DNA of 56,361 nucleotides from Candidatus Nitrosocaldus tengchongensis (GTDB taxonomy: Archaea > Thermoproteota > Nitrososphaeria > Nitrososphaerales > Nitrosocaldaceae): contig JACAFJ010000005.1 in the NCBI GenBank assembly GCA_013538675.1, forward strand, positions 1 to 56,361, given 5' to 3'. How positions within the stretch are numbered: position 1 is the first letter of the stretch; each line of letters opens with the position of its first letter. Made by a program: the position numbers and the translations under genes. Positions 2,822 through 2,872 of this stretch are shown in pieces. The notes beneath the pieces are model-generated. The model did no database searches and was not told the DNA's origin. It saw only the letters and a list, made by a program, of their open reading frames with translations.

Positions 2822-2872
2822 AGGTATACGGGTCATCTGACGAAAGGATGATGTGGCTCTGGAGCTGCAGTG
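2822..2872 (+). other. tRNA-Trp intron 2 (51 nt, position 37/38), box C/D guide-like
   Basis: Canonical intron after G37. Inside it: TACGGGTCA (2827-2835) is complementary to TGACCCGTA (2871-2879) of the 3' exon boundary; a D'-like CTGA is at 2837-2840; a C'-like ATGATGT is at 2848-2854; and CTCTGGAGC (2857-2865) is complementary to the anticodon region GCTCCAGAG (2815-2823). By the N+5 rule the D' guide points at C2874, nucleotide 39 of the tRNA. The final D box and first C box are degenerate. Euryarchaeal tRNA-Trp introns are known to guide methylation of positions 34 and 39; the function here is inference. Confidence 0.6.

Follow-up and report, generated by a model that had tools for sequence, protein, structure and literature searches.

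The best described counterpart of the element analysed here is the intron of the euryarchaeal pre-tRNA-Trp, which in Haloferax volcanii guides formation of Cm34 and Um39, is dispensable, and belongs to a kind present in at least 29 archaea (PMC2584109, PMC4090602, PMC11408192, PMC7714728). The figure of at least 29 is that of PMC2584109, and most of the cited cases of tRNA-Trp intron guides are euryarchaeal (PMC11408192). In the open literature we found neither a two-box form of such a guide nor a thaumarchaeal case described.

How does the tRNA-Trp gene of a thaumarchaeon compare? The window, which is the whole stretch of DNA that was analysed (56,361 nucleotides of Candidatus Nitrosocaldus tengchongensis, a thermophilic archaeon of hot springs that oxidises ammonia), holds a pre-tRNA-Trp(CCA) gene with two introns. 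The second is best read as a variant, with two boxes, of the guide known from euryarchaeal tRNA-Trp introns, and is predicted to direct Cm39. Like the introns of H. volcanii and Pyrococcus (sR50), intron 2 lies in the same tRNA at the same intron position, has a guide in the register of nucleotide 39 together with boxes D' and C', carries a complement of the anticodon region that includes C34, and faces a competing splicing fold. Unlike the euryarchaeal introns, it lacks boxes C and D and measures 51 nt, against 60-103 nt in the euryarchaeal cases seen or cited; nucleotide 39 is C, where H. volcanii has U, and there is a further intron at 28/29. The D'/C' kink-turn and the fifth-nucleotide rule are shared with stand-alone archaeal box C/D sRNAs, but in Nitrosocaldus there is one kink-turn, it sits inside a tRNA intron, and the predicted target is in its own precursor. 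Kink-turns that bind L7Ae without being part of a guide, such as that of the L7Ae mRNA leader (PMC5539422, PMC6298567), are likewise solitary and have C- and D-like strands; here, unlike in such kink-turns, the D' strand has a conserved guide next to it in most families.

Architecture of the pre-tRNA-Trp gene

The gene occupies positions 2761-2911 on the forward (+) strand, as do all features described below, with the acceptor stem formed by 2761-2767 and 2901-2907 and the CCA end encoded at 2909-2911. Excision of 2790-2812 and 2822-2872 leaves a perfect tRNA-Trp(CCA) cloverleaf of 77 nt, called tRNA-Trp(cca) by ARAGORN, and the 51-nt intron is recognised by ARAGORN itself when intron 1 is removed beforehand and introns are allowed. 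Exon 1 (2761-2789, nucleotides 1-28) is followed by the non-canonical, 23-nt intron 1 (2790-2812), located at 28/29 in the anticodon stem and absent from the original prediction made on this DNA. Exon 2, GGGCTCCAG (2813-2821), contains the anticodon CCA (2818-2820) with C34 at 2818. Intron 2 (2822-2872, 51 nt) is at the canonical 37/38 position, and exon 3 (2873-2911, nucleotides 38-73 plus CCA) contains C39 (2874), the predicted methylation target. Nucleotides 27-31 (AC|GGG) can pair with 39-43 (CCCGT) only once intron 1 has been removed; intron 1 splits this strand of the anticodon stem, a rival of the D' guide for 39-43. The bulge-helix-bulge of intron 1, as read from the sequence, is GGCG[AC|A]GTT...AAC-CGCA[AA|G]; relatives show full GGCG:CGCT pairing, and several families within the order have retained this bulge-helix-bulge.

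Within intron 2, the original prediction had described a CTGA preceded by a 9-nt guide perfectly complementary to the 3' exon border, with the fifth nucleotide upstream opposite nucleotide 39, a C'-like ATGATGT 7 nt further on, and a 9-nt match to the anticodon region including C34, all of which can be read directly. The D' guide (2827-2836) pairs through 2827-2835 with 2871-2879, placing G2832 opposite C39 (C2874), and a U2836-G2870 wobble extends this perfect helix to 10 in register. Box D' (CTGA, 2837-2840) is the non-bulged strand of the kink-turn. It is followed by the C-stem (2841-2846), in which C2841-G2846 closes a GAAA tetraloop, and by box C' (TGATGT, 2849-2854), the bulged strand, which is contained in the ATGATGT at 2848-2854. 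The anticodon-region complement (2857-2865) forms 9 bp with 2815-2823, C34 included, and is an alternative partner to the splicing helix. GCAG (2867-2870) stands in the register of the euryarchaeal box D (CTGA), box D itself being absent, and provides the 3' strand of the central splicing helix. In the archaeal bulge-helix-bulge of tRNA introns, nucleotides 32-35 pair with the 3' end of the intron between two 3-nt bulges; three of the four central pairs can form in the window's gene, with C34 mismatched. Among the 72 rows compared below, 27 likewise form three of the four and 33 form all four. By the pattern used, the kink-turn is absent from the other tRNA introns of the same genome.

The kink-turn and the D' guide in relatives

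By chance, the boxes alone (CTGA-N4-14-GATGATG) are expected about 0.9 times in the window, so the evidence has to be comparative and to come from conservation and covariation. In a DNA search the gene turned up in the five other Nitrosocaldus genomes and, beyond the genus, elsewhere in the order. A covariance model, R1, with the T-stem as its sole structure, was run on genomes from the order (400), the phylum (300) and two euryarchaeal phyla (200), and gave matches at E of 1e-9 or better in 132 of the 300 phylum genomes. R1 includes the box columns and is therefore biased towards introns that keep the boxes; guide pairing is unmodelled, and many guide-less introns were still returned. A set of 72 representatives, roughly one for each genus, was parsed by the kink-turn (C-stem only) and tRNA position, and adding the remaining kink-turn pairs to the parsing criterion altered none of the 72 rows.

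The dinucleotide that precedes GA in D' changes in step with the one that comes after TGA in C'. The covarying states are CTGA/TGATG, CTGA/TGAAG, CGGA/TGACG, CCGA/TGAGG, TTGA/TGAAA and ATGA/TGAAT. Between these strands, 123 of 144 pairs are formed, against 96 after shuffling, with none of 5000 shuffles as high, and Watson-Crick pairs alone number 73 against 47 expected; the 72 rows are related by descent, so that the shuffle results are not probabilities, and the argument is that compensated states recur in separate families. Within the order, D' is CTGA in 31 of 31 rows outside family f10, and four genera of f10 combine ATGA with TGATT. In relatives, D' and C' are separated by a C-G or T-A pair closing GAAA or GCAA loops, or by a longer stem. 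The kink-turn of D/D' (CUGA) and C/C' (RUGAUGA) boxes that marks box C/D RNAs is represented by D'/C', whose strands covary and which has a C-stem. Strand covariation combined with a C-stem is the pattern of a kink-turn that L7Ae would be expected to bind.

Beside this kink-turn, 39 of the 72 representatives, from 27 families, have 6 bp or more of guide pairing that sets nucleotide 39 against the fifth nucleotide ahead of D', and most of these helices are 9-11 bp long. This arrangement of a guide next to D/D' with its target at the fifth nucleotide upstream is confined to the C39 register: when the register is shifted by 1-3 nt, only 0-2 of the 72 rows have such a helix, and the two rows concerned (L197 and L206) resemble, by inspection, D' boxes placed one base off. 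As in the euryarchaeal type, the guide to nucleotide 39 spans the 3' border, and it covaries with intron positions -2 and -1 and exon positions 41-43. At position -2 the pairs are A:T (11), C:G (10) and T:A (16), and at position -1 they are C:G (20), A:T (4), T:A (13) and G:C (1). Compensated guide:exon states include GGGTCA:TGACCC, AGGTTC:GAACCT, GGGTAA:TTACCC and GGGTGT:ACACCC, and a compensated change separates two species of one genus (TGACCC/GGGTCA in L014, TTACCC/GGGTAA in L022). The mean guide helix is 9.5, and exchanging the guides between rows lowers it to 6.5.

Comparison thus firmly supports the D' half of the guide, with Cm39 as its prediction, and we consider it probable that intron 2 represents one half, D'/C', of a box C/D guide for Cm39 of pre-tRNA-Trp. 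The half-guide occurs across Thermoproteota, and also in L149, a record that carries the label Asgard. The suggestion of a thaumarchaeal self-guide therefore holds for the D'/C' half with its compensated guide to nucleotide 39, but not as something special to one thaumarchaeon. Whether boxes and complementarities covary in relatives, the question raised with that suggestion, is answered positively for D'/C' and for the nucleotide 39 guide; families f9 and f10 have lost the guide.

Boxes C and D and the complement of C34

What has become of the other half? The original prediction took as its premise that euryarchaeal tRNA-Trp introns guide positions 34 and 39, in agreement with the H. volcanii experiments (PMC2584109, PMC4090602), and proposed for this intron a full two-target guide for Cm34 and Cm39, with GCAG as a degenerate box D and a box C created by circularisation. 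In the C34 register, CTGA is found in none of the 72 Thermoproteota rows, compared with 29 of 29 distinct euryarchaeal introns; a box C in the 5' part is also found in none of the 72, and in 28 of the 29 euryarchaeal introns the D' guide is preceded by an element resembling box C. GCAG does lie exactly where the euryarchaeal CTGA lies, but with box D in register in 0 of 72 rows its reading as a degenerate box was rejected. So was a box C at the circular junction: the window's intron does read GTG|AGGT there, but RTGA occurs in 20 of the 72 rows and RTGANGA in one, the last intron bases follow guide pairing rather than a junction box, and GCAG and the junction overlap too tightly to fit a kink-turn. 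The terminal boxes C and D of the archaeal bipartite guide are consequently both missing, and the circular junction restores neither.

The anticodon complement itself is real and conserved. Its helix reaches 6 bp or more in 62 of the 72 rows and at least 7 bp in 57, and both sides change in its intronic extension, where the i1 pair is AT in 49, TA in 11 and CG in 3. Its conservation is in keeping with a two-target guide, as is the result that exact YTGGAGNNCTGA matches in five Nitrosocaldus genomes included, among the matches listed (30 of 39), no stand-alone C34 guide with a box C/D arrangement. Cm34 has also been found by mass spectrometry in S. acidocaldarius tRNA-Trp, the accessible part of PMC7668247 naming no Cm39; were the intron there of the two-box kind, this would be the reverse of what a half-guide predicts. 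Against these points stand the missing boxes. The complement rivals the splicing helix for nucleotides 32-35. The proposed C34 guide with its own in-register box D fails on this comparison, and a full two-target guide is unlikely, while guidance of C34 by intron 2 in some manner that dispenses with the box is possible.

Lineages that keep the kink-turn without the guide

Why would an intron keep the kink-turn once the guide has gone? In 33 of the 72 rows the kink-turn is retained with a guide to C39 shorter than 6 bp, two of these probably being register slips, and families f9 (ten genera read), f10 and several others have kept both C39 and the kink-turn and lost the guide. In f9 (L009-L013, L016, L035, L047-L057) the guide is replaced by a sequence of the AAACTAAGCTA type, and in f10 (L070-L077) by a CAAAC...GTTTG hairpin. 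From one f9 genus to another, the AAACTAAGCTA-type sequence moves by 2 nt relative to D' (CTGA), and on this ground we set aside its reading as a guide to a new trans target; that reading is further weakened by AAACT, which can pair with a downstream AGTTT. Since f9 and f10 have lost the guide and yet kept C39, Cm39 would not be indispensable.

These guide-less kink-turns, the least explained part of the comparison, suggest either an additional use of the kink-turn or slow decay. They would also suit a kink-turn that serves chiefly in pre-tRNA folding or splicing, with L7Ae holding the intron and the guide secondary, or lost in many lineages; f10 in particular covaries inside the kink-turn (ATGA/TGATT, with a CAC:GTG stem) and has a hairpin in the guide's place. 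Guide:exon compensation in one register only, which 27 families show, the window's own among them, is not demanded by folding, and we regard such a chiefly structural role as quite improbable. That intron 2 is an ordinary intron with chance boxes, its guide merely copying the 27-31 strand (ACGGG, which it contains) or forming the local GTCATC:GATGAT hairpin of the minimum-energy fold, agrees with the expected frequency of the boxes but is extremely improbable, being already disfavoured by covariation: the guide helix reaches 38, -1 and -2, beyond the anticodon stem, and covaries there, and the GTCATC pairing is limited to the nearest families, with TGATG kept where such pairing is impossible.

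A broader form of the half-guide proposal is that a lone C'/D' kink-turn RNP, lacking the C/D motif, methylates C39 throughout the phylum, and that guide-decayed lineages (f9, f10 and others) keep the kink-turn for a second task in pre-tRNA-Trp maturation. We put this forward tentatively, as plausible but somewhat more apt to fail than to hold.

Proposed mechanism

The half-guide reading implies the following sequence of events. L7Ae, which has been described as universal in archaea and with which a single 'tRNA' is enriched in S. acidocaldarius (PMC5539422), would bind the kink-turn formed by CTGA (2837-2840) and TGATG (2849-2853), and Nop5-fibrillarin would join the L7Ae-bound intron; the genome has neighbouring genes for Nop5 (PF01798, 1.4e-65) and fibrillarin (PF01269, 1.3e-85). 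The guide would pair with the intron-exon border of a pre-tRNA-Trp, in cis or perhaps in trans, and C39 would be 2'-O-methylated (Cm39) before splicing. Splicing would need a competing fold, consisting of the anticodon stem and the bulge-helix-bulge, so that the guide duplex and the splicing fold would be mutually exclusive, as in Haloferax. The anticodon complement persists in a phylum in which the boxes C and D required for C34 methylation are missing.

The folding check put forward with the original prediction returned, for naked RNA, a minimum-energy structure that favours the local hairpin over the guide duplex, and thermodynamic folding alone gives no discrimination between the guide and splicing states. 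No Rfam family matches intron 2; weak tmRNA and mascRNA matches were discarded as tRNA-like ends rather than intron families. Judged by its sequence, intron 2 would work like a box C/D guide while falling outside the full archaeal definition. A two-box half-guide is made doubtful by PMC8413462, according to which archaeal box C/D guides require both motif pairs, the second being essential. If ammonia oxidisers and other Thermoproteota share a conserved half-guide, the range of the device would stretch across archaea; such a half-guide would help to tell which half is older, and would offer a natural way to test if a single kink-turn suffices for guided methylation. Lineages with the kink-turn and no guide raise the question of the intron's other role.

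Other features of tRNA genes in the sample

With two exon patterns, tRNA-Trp was not found in 27 of 28 genomes tested from f7 and f9 (G012, G026, G075, G098 and others), including complete genomes of f9; the gene may be interrupted elsewhere in them. The sole match among the 28, in an f7 genome (L088/L295), has a 32-nt intron that lacks the kink-turn, and an apparent T-arm insertion. Apparent extra T-arm introns are present in the tRNA-Trp genes L021, L078, L080 and L081 (families f4, f8 and f16), and D-loop insertions in L017, L019, L066 and L068 (families f3, f12 and f13). L095 and L124, tRNA-Trp genes of thaumarchaeal type whose records bear the labels Deltaproteobacteria and Woesearchaeota, probably come from mislabelled or contaminated MAGs. 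Another intron-containing tRNA, L298 (G000:C32:13880-14090), apparently tRNA-Ser(CGA), has an intron of about 70 nt with GGATGATGG and CTGATGATGA, which are possible C/D-like elements.
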